51,107 nt of DNA from Candidatus Gastranaerophilales bacterium (GTDB taxonomy: Bacteria; Cyanobacteriota; Vampirovibrionia; Gastranaerophilales; Gastranaerophilaceae). Shown here one piece after another: positions 3,736 to 43,700 of this stretch (its first letter is position 1; every line of letters begins with the position of its first letter). A program made the position numbers and the translations under genes. The notes beneath the pieces were generated by a model, which saw nothing but the letters and a program-made list of their open reading frames with translations, was not told the origin of the DNA and ran no database searches. The stretch spans positions 1 to 51,107 of the forward strand of contig CALVAR010000016.1 in the NCBI GenBank assembly GCA_944325575.1. The letters run 5' to 3'.

Positions 3736-3746
3736 TTTTTCACAGT

Positions 3747-3921
3747 ATTTCATATTGTCAACTGACTCCGACTACTTGATGAACCTGTGCAATAAACAAG
3801 TCAGTTTTTAAAAACAAGTCCGGCACAGGCAACAAGTGCATGGGGTCACTTCCGCAAAATGCTAGACTTGGCGTCACTCGCACTCCGTGGAGCACTTCTA
3901 CAAGCGAGGCCGCCTCAGACA
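3747..3921 (+). repeat. 175-bp dispersed repeat, copy 2
   Basis: A full-length basic copy without inserts, starting 11 nt after the epimerase stop. The loop palindrome reads GTGGAGCAC here, as in copy 5, where copies 1, 4 and 7 have GTGGACCAC. From 3922 to 4044 only an AT-rich upstream region of the next gene is seen. Confidence 0.95.
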
Positions 3922-4044
3922 TTCTCTTATGAAATTCTGAAATGTTAAAATTTGTATTTAAAAAATAGCAATAGTAGCAAAATATTTATTTACTTGAGTT
4001 AGAATAAATAACAAATAATGGCTCAAATATTTTAGGGAGAACTC

Positions 4045-8882: not shown

Positions 8883-9147
8883 ATTTCATATTGTCAACTG
8901 ACTCCGACTACTTGATGAACCTGTGCAATAAACAAGTCAGTTTTTAAAAACAAGTCCGGCACAGGCAACAAGTGCATGGGGTCACTTCCTCTATATCTAT
9001 GCATATGCGTCCTCGCTACCTCTCATAAATATGCCACCGGCATATTTATTCGGCAGAGTGTGTACCACTTCTAGCTTGAGATGTAGGCGAGTTTACGAGC
9101 CGTACATATCAGGATGCTCTTGAGTACAAGCGAGGCCGCCTCAGACA
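8883..9147 (+). repeat. 175-bp dispersed repeat, copy 3 (expanded)
   Basis: Both ends match the other copies, but the interior is enlarged to 265 bp. The insert carries a family A hairpin at 9016-9059 and further stretches not found in other copies (9060-9128). CCTCGC (9011-9016) can still pair with GCGAGG (9130-9135), so the main arm of the fold is kept while its loop has grown. It fills the 388-bp gap between two minus-strand genes, where no gene is seen. Confidence 0.92.
9016..9059 (+). repeat. Family A variable-stem hairpin module
   Basis: The fixed ends CTACCTCTCA and TTCGGCAGAGT are identical to those at 973-1014. The stem is a different 10-bp sequence, TAAATATGCC/GGCATATTTA. Confidence 0.82.
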
Positions 9148-12255: not shown

Positions 12256-12430
12256 ATTTCATATTGTCAACTGACTCCGACTACTTGATGAACCTGTGCA
12301 ATAAACAAGTCAGTTTTTAAAAACAAGTCCGGCACAGGCAACAAGTGCATGGGGTCACTTCCGCAAAATGCTAGACTTGGCGTCACTCGCACTCCGTGGA
12401 CCACTTCTACAAGCGAGGCCGCCTCAGACA
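12256..12430 (+). repeat. 175-bp dispersed repeat, copy 4
   Basis: A basic copy without inserts. It lies between the divergent dtxR-like and pgi genes, so the minus-strand operon must be transcribed from within or just before it unless the promoter lies in the 32 bp before 12223. Confidence 0.95.
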
Positions 12431-12502
12431 TTATTTGTAAAAAAATATAAAGATTCTGTTTAAAAACCGTATAATTTTATTTTTACGGGATTTAATACAG
12501 CT

Positions 12503-19849: not shown

Positions 19850-19863
19850 TATAAAAAGGCAAT

Positions 19864-20038
19864 ATTTCATATTGTCAACTGACTCCGACTACTTGATGAA
19901 CCTGTGCAATAAACAAGTCAGTTTTTAAAAACAAGTCCGGCACAGGCAACAAGTGCATGGGGTCACTTCCGCAAAATGCTAGACTTGGCGTCACTCGCAC
20001 TCCGTGGAGCACTTCTACAAGCGAGGCCGCCTCAGACA
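19864..20038 (+). repeat. 175-bp dispersed repeat, copy 5
   Basis: A basic copy starting 15 nt after the TolC-family stop. Its ends pair best of all copies: ATATTGTC at the left with GACAATAT at the right. The loop palindrome is GTGGAGCAC, as in copy 2. Confidence 0.95.
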
Positions 20039-36439: not shown

Positions 36440-36742
36440 ATGATTGAAAAGAATTTTACCGTTACAACAGTACGGGAACTCGTGCAATATCCGAATCCAT
36501 TTTTTACTGTTATTAACAATATGCAAAAAAGCATGTTTAATATGCTCAGAGAATTATTAGAGTATATTTTACGTTTTGATTTGTGCCTTTATAAGAAAAA
36601 TTTGAATTACTCTTTAAAAAGAAAGTTTGTAAAGGCAGAAGAATCAAATTCTATGAAAAATTTGGCAATATATTCCGTTGTTGATTCTGTTGATACGGAT
36701 GTCAGAAAAGTTTTGGATATAATGAAAATATTTAATGATTAA
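36440..36742 (+). CDS. Hypothetical protein (100 aa)
   Basis: I do not recognise this protein. It has a predicted amphipathic helical middle (FTVINNMQKSMFNMLRELLEYILRF read in two helices) and a basic stretch. There is no signal peptide. ACAGGAG lies 9 nt before the ATG, a good site. A long leader of about 180 nt would separate it from the TATGAT box at 36250. It is followed 6 nt after its stop by repeat copy 6. Confidence 0.6.
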   Translation: MIEKNFTVTTVRELVQYPNPFFTVINNMQKSMFNMLRELLEYILRFDLCLYKKNLNYSLKRKFVKAEESNSMKNLAIYSVVDSVDTDVRKVLDIMKIFND

Positions 36743-36747
36743 TAAAT

Positions 36748-36922
36748 TGTCTGAGGCGGCCTCGCTTGTAGAAGTGGTCCACGGAGTGCGAGTGACGCCA
36801 AGTCTAGCATTTTGCGGAAGTGACCCCATGTACTTGTTGCCTGTGCCGGACTTGTTGGTAAAAATGTACTTGTTTATTGCACAGGTTCATCAAGTAGTCG
36901 GAGTCAGTTGACAATATGAAAT
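36748..36922 (-). repeat. 175-bp dispersed repeat, copy 6 (inverted)
   Basis: The only copy on the minus strand, starting 6 nt after the stop of 36440-36742. The apex of the CCTGTGC/GCACAGG arm has changed: AGTCAGTTTTTAAAAAC of the other copies is AGTACATTTTTACCAAC here, while the stem is unchanged. Nothing else is seen in 36923-37042. Confidence 0.94.
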
Positions 36923-37042
36923 AGTCTGTTTATACGTATTTTGTATATGTGTAGATTTATAAAATTCTTTTCGAAAACACGCAATTTTTTTTATCGTTTT
37001 GTTTTAGAATAAAAAAGATTTTGTAAGTAGTGTTTTGGAAAA

Positions 37043-38077
37043 GTGCGATTGATTTCTTCATTATCAAATAAAAATATATATACAAATCCCGGTTTTCATG
37101 CGCAATTAACGGTTCAAAATCCTCAAGCTCCGAAAGCAAGAGCCGTTTATAATGATTTTGCCAAGACAAAAGCTGATGAGTGCATGAATAACGGTAATTT
37201 TGAAAAGGCTATCCAGTACTATAAACAAGCACTGCAAAACAATCCCCAAAACGCCGATGCTCATCTAAACATTGCAAAATCATACAACTACAGTGCTCTT
37301 TATAAAGAGGCAATACCTCATCTGGAAGCATATTTGCGCCAAAATCCTCAGGATATAGAGAATATTACACTGCTCGGAGAGTGTTATAAAAAATCCGGTA
37401 TGCTGTCAAAATCAATGGAATATTTTAATAAGGCGCTTGAAATAGAGCCCCATTATGATTATGCAAGACGCAATCTGCTGGACGCACAGAATCTTTTACT
37501 TTCCTGTATTGACCCTGCAAGGGCAAGACAGGAAAGATACAATGATGCGGTAAATAACCTGACACAGGCCGTAAAAATAGCTAAAAGCTTTTTCCCTAAA
37601 GGCTATACGGACGATATGAAAGATATTACAGTATCATTTAATAAAACCTCCAAAATGGGCGGCAGGTCCAATATTGCTCAGTATGAGCATAATAAAAGAA
37701 AAATTTCCGTAACCGACGAATATACTTATGCTGACCCTAAACTAACAGGAGCTTATCTTATACATGAATTTGTCCACGGAAAGGATAATGACCCCTATAC
37801 ATCGGTACGGGAAGAACAAGATGCATACAGAGTACAGGCCGAGTATTGGGTTAATAATGTTAAAGATGTGTATGATCCGGAGATGGATTATGTATCTGAT
37901 TTGTACAAACAATCCGCCAGGGCTCTTGATGAAAGGGTTGCGGAAATTTATAAGCTAAGAGACCCCGGAATTGCGGAAACATCATATAATCATCCTCCTT
38001 CAAAGGGAAAAGCTGCGGCTTATGCTCTCGGCAACAATAATGTGCAGCCTTTAAGAGCTTATGAAATAATTGTGTAG
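37043..38077 (+). CDS. TPR protein with C-terminal HExxH metallopeptidase-like domain
   Basis: The 344-aa protein has about three TPR units (residues 35-150, for example GNFEKAIQYYKQALQNNPQN). A C-terminal domain carries HEFVH at 241-245 and EEQDAY at 257-262. This fits a zincin-type peptidase with a downstream Glu/Asp ligand, though I cannot place it in a named family. No signal peptide is visible; the lead NPGFHAQLT resembles the start of FKG-type proteins. GTG at 37043 is the only plausible start and its ribosome-binding site (GGAAAA) is weak. Confidence 0.68.
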   Translation: MRLISSLSNKNIYTNPGFHAQLTVQNPQAPKARAVYNDFAKTKADECMNNGNFEKAIQYYKQALQNNPQNADAHLNIAKSYNYSALYKEAIPHLEAYLRQNPQDIENITLLGECYKKSGMLSKSMEYFNKALEIEPHYDYARRNLLDAQNLLLSCIDPARARQERYNDAVNNLTQAVKIAKSFFPKGYTDDMKDITVSFNKTSKMGGRSNIAQYEHNKRKISVTDEYTYADPKLTGAYLIHEFVHGKDNDPYTSVREEQDAYRVQAEYWVNNVKDVYDPEMDYVSDLYKQSARALDERVAEIYKLRDPGIAETSYNHPPSKGKAAAYALGNNNVQPLRAYEIIV

Positions 38078-38179: not shown

Positions 38180-39940
38180 ATGAAAATAGACCCCTCGACA
38201 TATACAAACTACCTTATAACAAAAACATCACCCTTAAGAAAATTTGTAACAAAGCTGGACAGAAAAGGTGCGGTATTGCCTGTATTATTGTTAGAAGCTA
38301 CAGTTACAGGAGGCAGAACTTATCAGGCATATAAAAGAGACGGATTTGTTGAGGCTCGTGAAAGGCTTACGGAGGAATCGCTCGGTGCTATTTTCTGGCT
38401 TTTCGGTGCGGCAATGGCCGGATATTTGTTTGATAAAATCGGCCAAAAATTCATGAAAATTCCGAAAGACATGCCTGCTGTCGGTGTAGATGAAGTAAGA
38501 ACGCCGTTTAAAAACTATATTAATAAAATGGCATCTAAACTCAGAGTGTCTCCAGAATATCTGGCAAAATTTTCTGTTGGAAAGACAATTGCAAGCTTGA
38601 TTACAGCTTGCTTGTTTATCGGATATGTAGTTCCTAAAGCAAATCAGGCTATTACAAGACATATATACGGCAGGATGAACAAAAAAGATCCTAATCATGA
38701 AAAAGCACCGAATCCGTATACAAACAGACTTACTATAAAAGATGCACGTTCTATATTCTCAGCCAAGGGTGTATCCATAAATGCCGTAGATAATTTCAAA
38801 GCATTAATGGATAAAGATAACCCGCTGAAAGCATCTGCTCTTCCAGTAAATTCTTCAAAACCTTCATTTAAAGGTACTGTTGAAAGATTACTCCGTATTG
38901 TTCAAAACTTTGACGAGAACAGAGTATGGCAGCTTCTCGGTACTGATGTGGGTACAGTGAGCGGCAGAACTATCAATGCGAGAAATAACGATGAGCGTGT
39001 AGAAATTATGTTCAGAGATATTGTTTCCATTCCGTTCTATGTATTTACAATGCCTCTGATTGTTAAATTCATGAGCAAACATGATAAATTCAAAGGTCAA
39101 AATACTGATCTTAATCCGATGAGTGCAATGGAAACGCATAATAAACTTGTTACAAAAATGGGGGCTGCCGGAGTATCAGAAATGACACCTGAAGCATTCA
39201 GAGAGTTTGCACTCGGTAATGATGAAACATACAACAAAGTATTTGACAAAGTGTTTAAAGGAGCTTTCCAAAACAGCGAGAAACCTAAACCCAAAAAACT
39301 ATTTGGTATTATCCCGCTTAAGCAGGAAACACCTATAAAAACAATGACGCTTTCCGAATTTGAAACTCTAGTGGACAAAAACGCATCAGAATTTAAAAAT
39401 CCGGAAAAAATCAAAAATCTTGCACAGAGAATGTCAGGACTCCAGCCTGAAAGATACAATGAAAAATTAAAAGCCTTTGAAAAAGTTCTGACAGAAACAC
39501 AAATCGAAGATGTACTAAAAGGCGGTGCAGCAAGAGAACCTGAATTCTTAAAAGATATTCTTGATAATATTTTTGAGGGTAAACTTATAGATGTAAACAA
39601 TCCAAAATCTCTTGCTAAGAAAACAAGACCGTTATTTGATCCTTACAGATATATTTCTCAGGAATCTATTGAGAAAAACAGACAGAAAATTATTGATTAT
39701 GTGGAAGCAATTATTAAAGATGCCCAAAATAATGCAAGAAATGTTGATTTTGAATCAATGTTAAAAATGAATAAACGCAACTACTCTAAATACGGATTAT
39801 TTATGGGTCTCGGTATGGGAGTTTCCGCATTGTTCCTGTCAACAATTATTCCAAAGGTTCAATATTATATTACTTATCTGCGTACCGGCAAAAACAGTTT
39901 CCCGGGTACGGAAAATATGCAGGAACCTGAAAAAAAATAA
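38180..39940 (+). CDS. Hypothetical membrane protein with internal FKG motif
   Basis: A 586-aa protein of unknown function. Hydrophobic segments are near 65-85 (AIFWLFGAAMAGYLF), 125-145 (IASLITACLFIGYVV), 275-295 (IPFYVFTMPLIV) and 555-575 (GLFMGLGMGVSALFLS). They are separated by long charged cytoplasmic-type regions. PSFKG occurs in the linker near residue 215. The last segments resemble integral scaffold proteins rather than transporters. It lies 102 bp after the TPR-metallopeptidase gene, same strand, and ends at a bidirectional terminator. Confidence 0.72.
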   Translation: MKIDPSTYTNYLITKTSPLRKFVTKLDRKGAVLPVLLLEATVTGGRTYQAYKRDGFVEARERLTEESLGAIFWLFGAAMAGYLFDKIGQKFMKIPKDMPAVGVDEVRTPFKNYINKMASKLRVSPEYLAKFSVGKTIASLITACLFIGYVVPKANQAITRHIYGRMNKKDPNHEKAPNPYTNRLTIKDARSIFSAKGVSINAVDNFKALMDKDNPLKASALPVNSSKPSFKGTVERLLRIVQNFDENRVWQLLGTDVGTVSGRTINARNNDERVEIMFRDIVSIPFYVFTMPLIVKFMSKHDKFKGQNTDLNPMSAMETHNKLVTKMGAAGVSEMTPEAFREFALGNDETYNKVFDKVFKGAFQNSEKPKPKKLFGIIPLKQETPIKTMTLSEFETLVDKNASEFKNPEKIKNLAQRMSGLQPERYNEKLKAFEKVLTETQIEDVLKGGAAREPEFLKDILDNIFEGKLIDVNNPKSLAKKTRPLFDPYRYISQESIEKNRQKIIDYVEAIIKDAQNNARNVDFESMLKMNKRNYSKYGLFMGLGMGVSALFLSTIIPKVQYYITYLRTGKNSFPGTENMQEPEKK

Positions 39941-39955
39941 TATTAAACCAAAAAT

Positions 39956-39988
39956 AAAAAGCCGGTTGAAATTTTCAACCGGCTTTTT
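39956..39988. terminator. Bidirectional rho-independent terminator
   Basis: AAAAAGCCGGTTGAAA pairs with TTTCAACCGGCTTTTT. It serves the convergent genes 38180-39940 (+) and 39990-41696 (-). A very similar terminator is at 43272-43303. Confidence 0.93.
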
Positions 39989-39989
39989 A

Positions 39990-41696
39990 TTAAAACTCAT
40001 AGCCTTTGGCTTTGATACCTGTTTTAACAGCATCTTTGAAGAAATCAATAAGCTTGTTCGAGTTAATAATATATGTGTAGTCACTAGTTTTTGTTGCCCA
40101 TTCGTCGGGATACCTCAGTGCATCGGTTGCAGCATTGTCCAAAAATTCTTCCAATTCCGCATCAGGTATTCCCTTGCCTGACAATTGAGAGCGCATTTTA
40201 TCAATTATCGGTTTAAGAACATCATCTTCTGCTTTTTTTTGAATTTCAGAGAACTGATTACTACCTGTGGGAACAGCTGTAACCGTATCCGGTACACCCG
40301 CATCATCTGCAGCGGAATCTATATCAAAGTCATACAGAGCCTTGTAACCGCTTTTCTTCTGCTCTGCTTCCTGTGCGGCTGCCTGCTGTTCGGCCGCCTT
40401 TTGGGCTTCTGTTTTGTTTCCGCAAAGACTGTCGAAAACTTCAAAAAATTTATCTATTGTGCCCTTAACGCTTACAACAGCGCAAGATTTTCTTGCATTT
40501 ATGCCTTTTCTATCGGTACCAGCCCAGTAATTGCCGTTTTTGATTTTTTGGTCGTCAATAATACCTTCATCTTCTGTAATAATAAATCCGCCAAGAACAG
40601 CATTCATTGCTTGTTGTGCATATGAAGCAACTTCATCAGTCCAGGCATCACCCAGCGTTAATTGCAGAGAATTAACCAAGTTAGTTAAAATGGTGGTCAT
40701 CTCATTAATACCATCATTTTTGCTGGCATCCAAATCTTTTGTATGCCATGAACCGTGCCACATTTCATTATTATTATATCTACCTTCAAGTCCGGCACCT
40801 TCTAAGACTGTACTTTTGTCGTATGGTACATTATCGGTACTTTCAGCGGTAGAAGAATCTCCATTAGTACCATCTGTGCCCTGAGTAGAATCAGTAGGCT
40901 GAGTAAAGGCAGACTCTTGAGTATATTTGACATGAGCGTGTTCTTCAACCCACTCATTAGCCTGATCAAGGTTAGCAAGCATAACTTCCTGCAGCTTATT
41001 CTTATATTCAGCAGAATTTGTGCCATACTGAGCCGCAACTTCATCTAGAGCATCAAGATCAGATTGAGGGCACCACTGAGTAAGATGCTCGGATAAATCA
41101 TTAAAAATCCCTGCTGCAATTTGATATTGAGGGTCATTCGGATTCATTAATAAGGCATTAAGAATATAATGAATATCGAATTCTTGCTGAACATAAGCAA
41201 CATTGCCATAGCCGGAAACCATATAAGAGGTGGTAGAATCCTGCCCGTCATCAAGGTTACCGAATGTATAATCAGTAGCGGTAGCAGACTTGTAGCCCAT
41301 AGAGAGGGTATCAACGGTGTTAGAACCGAAACCGAGTGCGTCTGCTGCTTCATCTGTACCTTCGATTATGCGGTAAGTACCGTTTTCAAAGTCAAATTCA
41401 TAATATGTTTCTTCATCCTGACTTTGATATATGGATTTATTGCCGTTTACTACATGACGGCTGTCGTTTATAGTATTACCGGATACTCCGTCACCGTAAT
41501 ATGAATTACCTGTTTCAAGAAAGTTTTCTAACTGTTGGTTAAAGTAGCCGAGTTTATCTTTTAGTCTTAGGTATGATTCAAAGGATAAATTTCCGCCCGT
41601 ATTTTTATTATAAGCAAGATATTGACTGTAATATGTGTTATATAAATCAAAATCCCTTAGCGAACCTGTAGTTGCGCTTCCTACACCATCAACCAT
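39990..41696 (-). CDS. Hypothetical 568-aa protein with duplicated C-terminal region
   Basis: I cannot assign a family. There is no signal peptide. The N-terminal half is rich in Tyr, Asn, Gly and Asp (SATTGSLRDFDLYNTYYSQY), followed by a Ser/Thr/Asp linker near 270-290. The C-terminal 220 residues (WTDEVASYAQQ to GYEF) include a CAVVSVKG strand and an Ala/Gln-rich coil. They are about 88% identical to the open fragment at 41877-42530 on the other strand. Good ATG at 41696 after AGGAGATAAA. The gene lies between two inverted copies of its own 3' part. Secretion or adhesion is a guess only. Confidence 0.75.
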   Translation of the reverse strand: MVDGVGSATTGSLRDFDLYNTYYSQYLAYNKNTGGNLSFESYLRLKDKLGYFNQQLENFLETGNSYYGDGVSGNTINDSRHVVNGNKSIYQSQDEETYYEFDFENGTYRIIEGTDEAADALGFGSNTVDTLSMGYKSATATDYTFGNLDDGQDSTTSYMVSGYGNVAYVQQEFDIHYILNALLMNPNDPQYQIAAGIFNDLSEHLTQWCPQSDLDALDEVAAQYGTNSAEYKNKLQEVMLANLDQANEWVEEHAHVKYTQESAFTQPTDSTQGTDGTNGDSSTAESTDNVPYDKSTVLEGAGLEGRYNNNEMWHGSWHTKDLDASKNDGINEMTTILTNLVNSLQLTLGDAWTDEVASYAQQAMNAVLGGFIITEDEGIIDDQKIKNGNYWAGTDRKGINARKSCAVVSVKGTIDKFFEVFDSLCGNKTEAQKAAEQQAAAQEAEQKKSGYKALYDFDIDSAADDAGVPDTVTAVPTGSNQFSEIQKKAEDDVLKPIIDKMRSQLSGKGIPDAELEEFLDNAATDALRYPDEWATKTSDYTYIINSNKLIDFFKDAVKTGIKAKGYEF

Positions 41697-41804
41697 TTTA
41701 TCTCCTGTTCTGTCTTTATACTGTATTATTAATATCGGACTTGTAATAACAATACTTTAGTTAATGGCGCATGAATCTTTACAATTTGTAACAAAATTTG
41801 GCAA

Positions 41805-41834
41805 ATCAGGGCGAATATTGGTCCTGATTCGCCC
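41805..41834. other. Hairpin with two mutually exclusive pairings
   Basis: GGGCGAAT (41809-41816) can pair with ATTCGCCC (41827-41834), or ATCAGG (41805-41810) with CCTGAT (41823-41828). It lies in the 180-bp gap between the 568-aa gene and the inverted fragment. It could be a remnant end or a control element. Confidence 0.35.
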
Positions 41835-41876
41835 GAGTTATAAAATATATAGTCTTTCTTTTATCATATCATCCTT

Positions 41877-42530
41877 GGTACAGATGAAGTTGCTGCATAT
41901 GCTCAGCAAGCAGTGAATGCTGTTTTAGGTGGATTTGTTATCAGCGAAGATGAAGGTATTATAAATGACGAGGAAATTAAAAACTCTAATTATTGGGCTG
42001 GTACCGATAGAAAGGGCTGTAATGCAAAAAAATCTTGTGCTGTTGTAAGCGTTAAGGGCACAATTGATAAATTTTTTGAAGTTTTCGACAGCCTTTGCGG
42101 AAACAAAACAGAAGCCCAAAAGGCAGCTGAACAAGAAGCAGCTGCACAGGAAGCAGAGCAGAAGAAAAGCGGTTACAAGGCTCTGTATGACTTTGATATA
42201 GATTCCGCTGCAGATGACGCGGGTATTCCGGATACAGTTACCGTTGTTCCGACAGGAAGTAATCAGTTCTCTGAAATTCAAAAAAAAGCTGAGGACGATG
42301 TTCTTAAGCCCATTATTGATAAAATGCGTTCTCAATTGTCAGGAAAAGGAGTACCTGATGATGAATTGGAAGAACTTTTGGACAACGCTGCAACAGATGC
42401 ACTGGCGAACCCTAACAAATGGGCGACTACATCTAATAATTATACATATACTATTAACTCGAACAAGCTTATTGATTTATTCAAAGACGCTGTTAAAACC
42501 GGTATCAAAGCTAAAGGGTATGAGTTCTGA
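41877..42530 (+). pseudogene. Silent inverted copy of the 3' third of the 568-aa gene
   Basis: The frame is open from 41853 to the stop at 42530 but has no ATG, no ribosome-binding site and no promoter; a stop lies at 41850. The homology begins at about 41883 (DEVAAYAQQAV) and runs to the identical ending KAKGYEF. The centre (about 42040-42220) is almost identical to 40300-40480 at the DNA level, and both flanks are more diverged. It therefore looks maintained by exchange with the active gene. It is either a decaying duplicate or a cassette that becomes expressed on inversion. Confidence 0.78.
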
Positions 42531-42589
42531 TATCGCCGGGCATTGTTGAATCCGTGGATAAGATGATAGTACGGCTCGTATAGAAGATT

Positions 42590-42690: not shown

Positions 42691-42735
42691 TGTTCTCATC
42701 AGGATAATGCTGATAGATGCGGCAATAACTGTCAT

Positions 42736-42963
42736 ATTTCATATTGTCAACTGACTCCGACTACTTGATGAACCTGTGCAATAAACAAGTCAGTTTTTAA
42801 AAACAAGTCCGGCACAGGCAACAAGTGCATGGGGTCACTTCCGCAAAATGCTAGACTGGCTGCAACATCGGCTGAACTGAGCCGAAGCCTGATGTTATGC
42901 CCCTACCTGGTGGCGTCACTCGCACTCCGTGGACCACTTCTACAAGCGAGGCCGCCTCAGACA
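42736..42963 (+). repeat. 175-bp dispersed repeat, copy 7 (with family B hairpin inserted)
   Basis: Identical ends and layout to the basic copies, but after GCAAAATGCTAGAC a 54-bp hairpin module (42857-42910) interrupts the sequence. The remainder then continues with TGGCGTCACTCGC. It is a clean filled site compared with the empty copies 2, 4 and 5. Confidence 0.94.
42857..42910 (+). repeat. Family B variable-stem hairpin module
   Basis: The fixed ends TGGCTGCAA and TTATGCCCCTACCTGG enclose a stem starting CATC and ending GATG, with an inner CGGCT/AGCCG. The same ends with a different stem occur inverted at 50999-51053. Confidence 0.82.
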
Positions 42964-43017
42964 TTTTATCATTAGAAATTCATACATTCGTATAGTTATA
43001 AAATAATGTACGGGTGG

Positions 43018-43054: not shown

Positions 43055-43258
43055 ATGTCAGATGCAATCAGTTCAATAAGCTCTGCTATGTCAGGTCAGA
43101 CGCTAAGCATGCAAATGGCTTGTAAGGGACTTGCATTGCAAAAACAGCAAGGCGCAATTGCATTGCAGCTATTGCAAGGTGCTATGAGTGTTGCACCTCA
43201 AGACCCGTCGACTATAACGGCAGCGCAGTTACAATCCCCCATTGATATCAGAGTTTAA
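43055..43258 (+). CDS. Small YjfB-like protein (67 aa)
   Basis: A 67-aa protein whose spacing of Ser, Met and Gln (SISSAMSGQTLSMQMACKGL, then LQKQQGAIALQLLQGA) resembles the YjfB 'putative motility protein' family of Firmicutes. It ends SPIDIRV; the next small protein ends STIDIKV. AAAAAGGA lies 8 nt before the ATG. No flagellar genes are in the window, so a motility role is not supported here. It has its own promoter-like box and terminator. Confidence 0.7.
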   Translation: MSDAISSISSAMSGQTLSMQMACKGLALQKQQGAIALQLLQGAMSVAPQDPSTITAAQLQSPIDIRV

Positions 43259-43303: not shown

Positions 43304-43391
43304 TTTTTAATGTATTTTAATACATTAGTATGATTTATTTTGGGCACAAAGCGCTAAAATTTATATGTTAATAAAAAAAGGAAGTTTTATT

Positions 43392-43700
43392 ATGATTCTT
43401 AATTATACTTCAACCACAGAACAAACAAGCGGTGCAAATATAATATCTGCTTGGATTGCTATCTTGCAAAAAAATTCTAAAAGCACTGCCCAGCTGCAAT
43501 CAGAAATGATAGAAGGCGTTTCTCAAACTATTAAGGACATACAGGACAAAGCTATTGAAAAAGCTAAAGAATCACTCAAAGAAACTGATGAGGAAGATTC
43601 TAATACAGATACAGAAGAATATGCGGTTCAAAATGATACTGCACAATCAACGGAAACTGTCTCTGATAATACACAATCAACGATTGATATAAAAGTATAG
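43392..43700 (+). CDS. Small acidic protein with IDIKV tail (102 aa)
   Basis: The protein has a helical N-terminal half (IISAWIAILQKNSKSTAQLQ, then GVSQTIKDIQDKAIEKAKES) and an acidic, disordered C-terminal half. It ends TIDIKV, like its neighbour at 43055 (PIDIRV). The start at 43392 follows AAAGGAAG; a longer frame to 43365 is less likely. No signal peptide. Function unknown. It may work with the 67-aa protein, since both share the tail and lie in tandem. Confidence 0.65.
   Translation: MILNYTSTTEQTSGANIISAWIAILQKNSKSTAQLQSEMIEGVSQTIKDIQDKAIEKAKESLKETDEEDSNTDTEEYAVQNDTAQSTETVSDNTQSTIDIKV

Follow-up and report, generated by a model that had tools for sequence, protein, structure and literature searches.

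A Gastranaerophilales gene with a sigma-28-like promoter, a middle module apparently exchanged between species and an inverted partial copy of its tail

The window analysed here, a stretch of 51,107 nucleotides, is contig C16 of a 2.02-Mb assembly in 38 contigs (labelled G000 in the comparisons), and carries a gene for a 568-aa protein of a family without match (39990-41696, reverse strand). Its product consists of a conserved N-terminal region (residues 1-262), a Ser/Thr/Gly linker modelled with low confidence (approximately residues 265-290), a variable middle module (approximately 265-455, reaching 519 when compared with genome G022) and a conserved C-terminal region. The account that we favour, with moderate confidence, is that this gene is diversified by homologous recombination, and that the inverted partial copy of its tail serves as a passive partner, not as part of a dedicated switch. 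The sigma-28-like promoter would drive a protein with conserved N- and C-terminal regions, and crossovers within these would exchange its middle module from one species to another. The last 217 codons occur again in inverted orientation, promoterless, just upstream of the promoter, and homologous recombination between the arms, probably RecA dependent, could from time to time bring about conversion of the tail or an in-frame inversion of the promoter and N-terminal part. That these two arms recombine at present is what we infer. Replacement of the module between species needs no inverted copy, and most relatives are without one.

A repeat search of the window returned two arms of 653 nt each, 87% complementary and separated by 1239 nt. 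The active arm (39988-40640, reverse strand) covers codons 353-568 of the gene and its stop. The silent arm (41880-42532, forward strand) is an inverted copy of the tail, the only second copy of the gene within the 2.02-Mb genome; its frame is open for 217 codons, from 41877 to a stop at 42530, and the window scan found no sigma-28-like site before it. The alignment of the arms contains 83 mismatches and no gaps, the frame of the gene being preserved in both, and a match of this length and quality (BLAST E=0.0) is not due to chance. Between the arms lie the promoter-like site at 41733-41759 and residues 1-351, the inner boundary falling at codon 352. The earlier note, made from the sequence of this region, had described inverted C-terminal copies around the promoter and N-terminal part, and the gap-free repeat, in register throughout, bears this out.

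The two tails differ at 26 of 217 residues (12.0%, against the approximately 12% first estimated), and mismatches between the arms become denser toward both ends, as had also been proposed. Inversion was performed in silico at four crossover points and left an open reading frame of 568 codons every time, in agreement with the claim that a flip would fuse the N-terminal part to the other tail without loss of frame. The longest exact runs between the arms measure 74, 32 and 32 nt, which is long enough for homologous recombination; the 74-nt run occupies 40303-40376 and pairs with 42144-42217. High identity in a central block was likewise found (9 mismatches in 180 nt, at 42030-42209 of the silent copy). 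However, the recent exchange that had been read from it was dropped, as permutation of the synonymous differences gave no significant dip (p 0.11-0.35).

The gene is flanked by a 586-aa neighbour (ORF at 38180-39940, forward strand) and a 67-aa neighbour (ORF at 43055-43258, forward strand). A perfect palindrome with 19-bp arms (39953-39991), likely a terminator, separates the convergent ends of the 568-aa and 586-aa genes. The small proteins encoded at 43055-43258 and 43365-43700 have a common C-terminal motif (SPIDIRV and STIDIKV, respectively) and no convincing Pfam match. Upstream of the 586-aa gene, a TPR protein (37043-38077) contains an HEFVH (HExxH) motif and is possibly a metallopeptidase; a second protein, with HEALH, is encoded in locus L035 (6331-7104 of that locus). 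A dispersed intergenic repeat is found at 42730-42975, with further copies near 871-1090, 3746-3923, 8883-8989, 12256-12432, 19862-20038 and 36742-36923 (inverted). Its 123-bp core is 100% identical in several copies, and dozens of copies occur in G022. Most other copies lack 53 bp that the copy at 42730 has at its positions 129-181. An Rfam search of the 36.4-43.4 kb region gave no match.

The promoter-like site, TAAAG-N17-CGATA (41733-41759, reverse strand), resembles those read by sigma-28 (FliA) and is the sole such site in the window scan. It starts 63 nt ahead of the start codon, within the stretch that an inversion would turn. The pattern TAAAG-N16/17-CGA(T/C)A was present 60-160 nt before the start codon in all 20 complete homologues, and the exact form seen here occurs at 16 sites in the genome versus 2 for a reversed control pattern. 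One of the 16 precedes a flagellin gene. A FliA-type sigma factor is encoded in the genome, with a match over the cut-off. Because the motif is conserved, the sites outnumber the control and FliA is encoded, sigma-28 control of the 568-aa gene is predicted as likely, and the gene probably belongs to the motility regulon. Several of the 16 sites (loci L150-L165) precede short unidentified ORFs (e.g. L155, L161, L162 and L164), which suggests that the predicted regulon includes undescribed proteins.

No significant match to the 568-aa protein was found in Pfam, NCBIfam, PHROGs or the PDB sequences. An AlphaFold model built from 25 sequences reached a mean pLDDT of 75 and a pTM of 0.39, with the linker below 50. 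Searches with this model gave no Foldseek match better than E 0.6 and a best VIA-align Z of 5.2, which is not convincing; with a pTM of 0.39, a fold may have been missed. A flagellin or other filament protein was considered and rejected, for neither an N- nor a C-terminal flagellin domain was matched when the gene and 24 relatives were scanned against Pfam. A type I restriction specificity subunit (HsdS) was rejected likewise, with no Methylase_S target-recognition domain matched in Pfam scans of the 25 members. No homologue was confirmed in viral contigs. The promoter, together with the pattern of variation, leads us to guess that the protein may be exported through the flagellar apparatus.

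Homologues were found in 20 of the 22 other congeneric genomes. In a 21st congener (G002), the last 24 codons of the gene stand at a contig end, adjoining the 586-aa neighbour. Beyond the genus, matches were restricted to two other genera of the family. Most of the named relatives are metagenome-assembled genomes that carry the label Candidatus Gastranaerophilales, and module exchange is read from one genome per species.

Comparison of these homologues region by region points to replacement in the middle of the gene. Between G000 and G012, identity is 52% in the N-terminal region, 81% in the module and 44% in the C-terminal region. The corresponding figures are 94%, 36% and 92% between G011 and G021, and 83%, 35% and 92% between G016 and G018. 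Four module types have several members; placing them on the N-terminal tree of 16 genomes takes 9 changes, versus a mean of 9.2 for shuffled labels. Judging from these comparisons, the phylogeny of the module is independent of that of its flanks, and distant species have the middle module in common but not its flanks.

The breakpoints of one such event can be placed by comparison with G022, whose G022A module is nearest to the G007 module (64%). At the DNA level the two genomes are approximately 99-100% identical over 38200-40090, and identity breaks sharply within the gene at approximately 40140 and 40890. The intervening 40141-40890 (reverse strand) is a clear replaced stretch relative to G022, on the evidence of the alignment: identity is mostly below 50% within it, versus approximately 94-100% on the tail side and 84-100% on the N-terminal side. 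Over 9 kb of neighbouring sequence the two genomes are approximately 86% identical. On the other side of the tail breakpoint, 36930-40140 matches contig C4 of G022 over 3.4 kb, with a DNA identity of approximately 95% that rises to near 99-100% within the 586-aa gene, and given the 86% of the neighbouring 9 kb, a recent interspecies transfer of this stretch is probable. The high-identity stretch starts just after the copy of the dispersed repeat at 36742-36923.

The orientation of the gene was scored relative to the 586-aa and 67-aa genes. It is forward in seven species (G004, G009, G011, G012, G016, G018 and G021) and opposite in G000, G001, G003, G006, G014, G017, G019, G020 and G022; in G008 the locus is rearranged. 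On the flank tree, the forward species form a single clade. Two orientation changes are required on the flank tree, two on the N-terminal tree and three on the rpoB tree. When orientation labels were shuffled on the N-terminal tree, the mean was 5.6 changes, and two or fewer were obtained in 0.1% of cases (p=0.001). Orientation thus follows phylogeny, so that flipping is slow across species and frequent switching among them is rejected; two changes, versus 5.6 in shuffles, indicate that inversion or re-insertion is rare but real. The earlier note had looked to orientation for signs of flipping, and the comparison, made here between species, gives a divided answer: both orientations exist, but they change only twice and along the phylogeny.

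By self-comparison, no second tail copy was detected around most relatives' genes, G015 being the exception, and inspection of frame translations for the gaps concerned, in 12 relatives, brought no second-tail remnant to light. In G015 the gene is at a different location, and an inverted remnant lies approximately 0.6-0.8 kb upstream of it. This remnant consists of 102 bp (98% identical to positions 381-482 of the gene) and 107 bp (100% identical to the gene end), fused at a 22-bp microhomology. At the site occupied in other species, the 586-aa and 67-aa genes of G015 stand approximately 155 bp apart with no gene between (L118, 1349-1503).

In G022, two contigs end within the gene: they have exactly 99 identical bases in common and then continue into two different tails, one adjoining the 586-aa gene and the other gltX. 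The tails differ throughout the module, where they are 25% identical, and the G022 assembly yielded no match to the first part of the gene. A shared stretch of exactly 99 bases would be produced by a fork of the assembly graph at word length 100, which suggests one upstream sequence continued in two ways. The pattern fits two tails on either side of a single N-terminal half, or two genes whose N-terminal halves are identical. A reciprocal translocation was considered as the origin of the tail at gltX and rejected, since the enolase-gltX junction that it predicts is absent in G000. Together, the G015 remnant and the G022 tails are a hint, drawn from assembled contigs, of recombining copies in some relatives.

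Selection on the silent copy bears on whether it has a role at all. Between the two tails, dN/dS is 0.125 at a dS of 0.51, and an unselected tail would approach a much higher value. As estimated from these substitutions, the tails have diverged mostly under selection, and the second tail had a function through most of that time. This function may have been exerted here, by way of inversion or conversion; alternatively, the tail came from another strain and was functional there. The data fit both. The second possibility leaves room for a copy that is a recent partial inverted duplication, or a tail captured from a related strain, and that is now without role and heading for loss, an explanation which we regard as unlikely while giving it more weight than the other alternatives. 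A low dN/dS would also be expected of it, if the tail was functional elsewhere until recently. The copy is promoterless and truncated, G015 exhibits a comparable copy in decay, and the location is not conserved even in the closest relative, in which the 67-aa neighbour adjoins an enolase-like gene. Yet the frame is fully open across 217 codons, and three of the five genomes of the clade possess some second copy, which suggests that such copies form recurrently.

The earlier note had proposed a phase-variable C-terminus. In its strong form, this would be a working phase- or antigen-variation switch, in which the promoter and N-terminal half invert frequently and cells alternate between two in-frame C-termini. 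The geometry is appropriate, with arms head to head and the promoter inside the segment, and inversion is possible in frame, with long exact runs available. The silent arm has undergone no relaxation of selection, both gene orientations occur among species at one locus, and in G022 two very different tails are joined to one N-terminal sequence. Nevertheless, we hold such a switch to be improbable. No recombinase or invertase was found among 17 flanking proteins (approximately 34-50 kb) scanned against Pfam. A nearby recombinase is needed for site-specific inversion and not for inversion of the RecA type. Furthermore, orientation follows phylogeny with two changes, second copies are missing around most relatives' genes in spite of the hints from G015 and G022, and G022 may hold two full genes at two loci. 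In addition, little would be gained: the tails share 88% identity and a single module type, so that a flip would alter at most 26 residues and would leave the gene on. The silent arm begins at codon 352, past the first half of the module, and can donate only part of it. The geometry and the in-frame inversion of the earlier proposal stand, and the switch is improbable. What these sequences visibly show is diversification by replacement of the middle module, rather than by alternation of the tail.

An assembly artefact, in which mis-joined reads of two strains or species created the inverted copy, is very improbable: the assembly is in 38 contigs and related assemblies break inside the gene, but an identity of 87% makes it unlikely that the end of a contig was collapsed or mirrored, and the arms are embedded in a 51-kb contig that has a distinct flank on either side of them and whose outer flanks fit those of relatives.

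Ordinary homologous recombination in the conserved parts, with the inverted tail as an incidental partner, is the reading that we prefer to a dedicated switch because no recombinase was found among the flanking proteins scanned, orientation is stable across species and the tails are nearly the same. It can be set beside known systems. At the sap locus, cassettes in opposite orientations, with a common conserved N-terminus, enclose an invertible promoter segment. In this S-layer system of Campylobacter fetus, one promoter serves variant genes, and recombination between sap homologues leads to phase variation (PMC3887049). There, whole gene copies in several cassettes are involved, whereas here there are one gene and one partial copy, and the promoter and the N-terminal half lie between the arms. 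Inverted silent partial copies beside an expressed gene, with mosaic exchange of domains, are a property of hsdS loci. Phase-variable type I restriction hsdS loci, e.g. in Streptococcus pneumoniae, are driven by an invertase (PMC11709252). In contrast, Pfam scans of the present family matched no methylase-specificity domain, and none of the flanking proteins scanned was recognised as an invertase.

In flagellin and other filament proteins, a variable middle lies between conserved ends. The 568-aa protein resembles them in its conserved N- and C-terminal regions, in a variable middle that passes from species to species, and in a sigma-28-like promoter common to a flagellin gene of the same genome; it differs in having no flagellin domain, the flagellins of this genome being separate genes. 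Sigma-28 control is the parallel proposed between the 568-aa protein and exported proteins of Campylobacter jejuni. In that species, non-flagellar proteins are exported through the flagellar apparatus (PMC2764114, PMC5223770). For the 568-aa protein, export is putative.

The best-known cases of gene diversification by module exchange and inverted silent copies concern pathogens and the proteins on their surface. A search of a set of open-access papers for Gastranaerophilales together with phase variation returned nothing. We speculate, while holding it to be rather unlikely, that in these gut-dwelling, non-photosynthetic Cyanobacteria the protein is a variable surface or exported ligand under sigma-28, whose module circulates between species and whose inverted silent copies give rise, through homologous inversion and conversion, to within-strain variants, that is, to antigenic variation. 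Independently of this, a family without match in the curated libraries searched, from uncultured gut bacteria of the cyanobacterial phylum, shows strong module exchange between species. If exported, the 568-aa protein would be a candidate for interaction with the host, with phages or with neighbouring bacteria.
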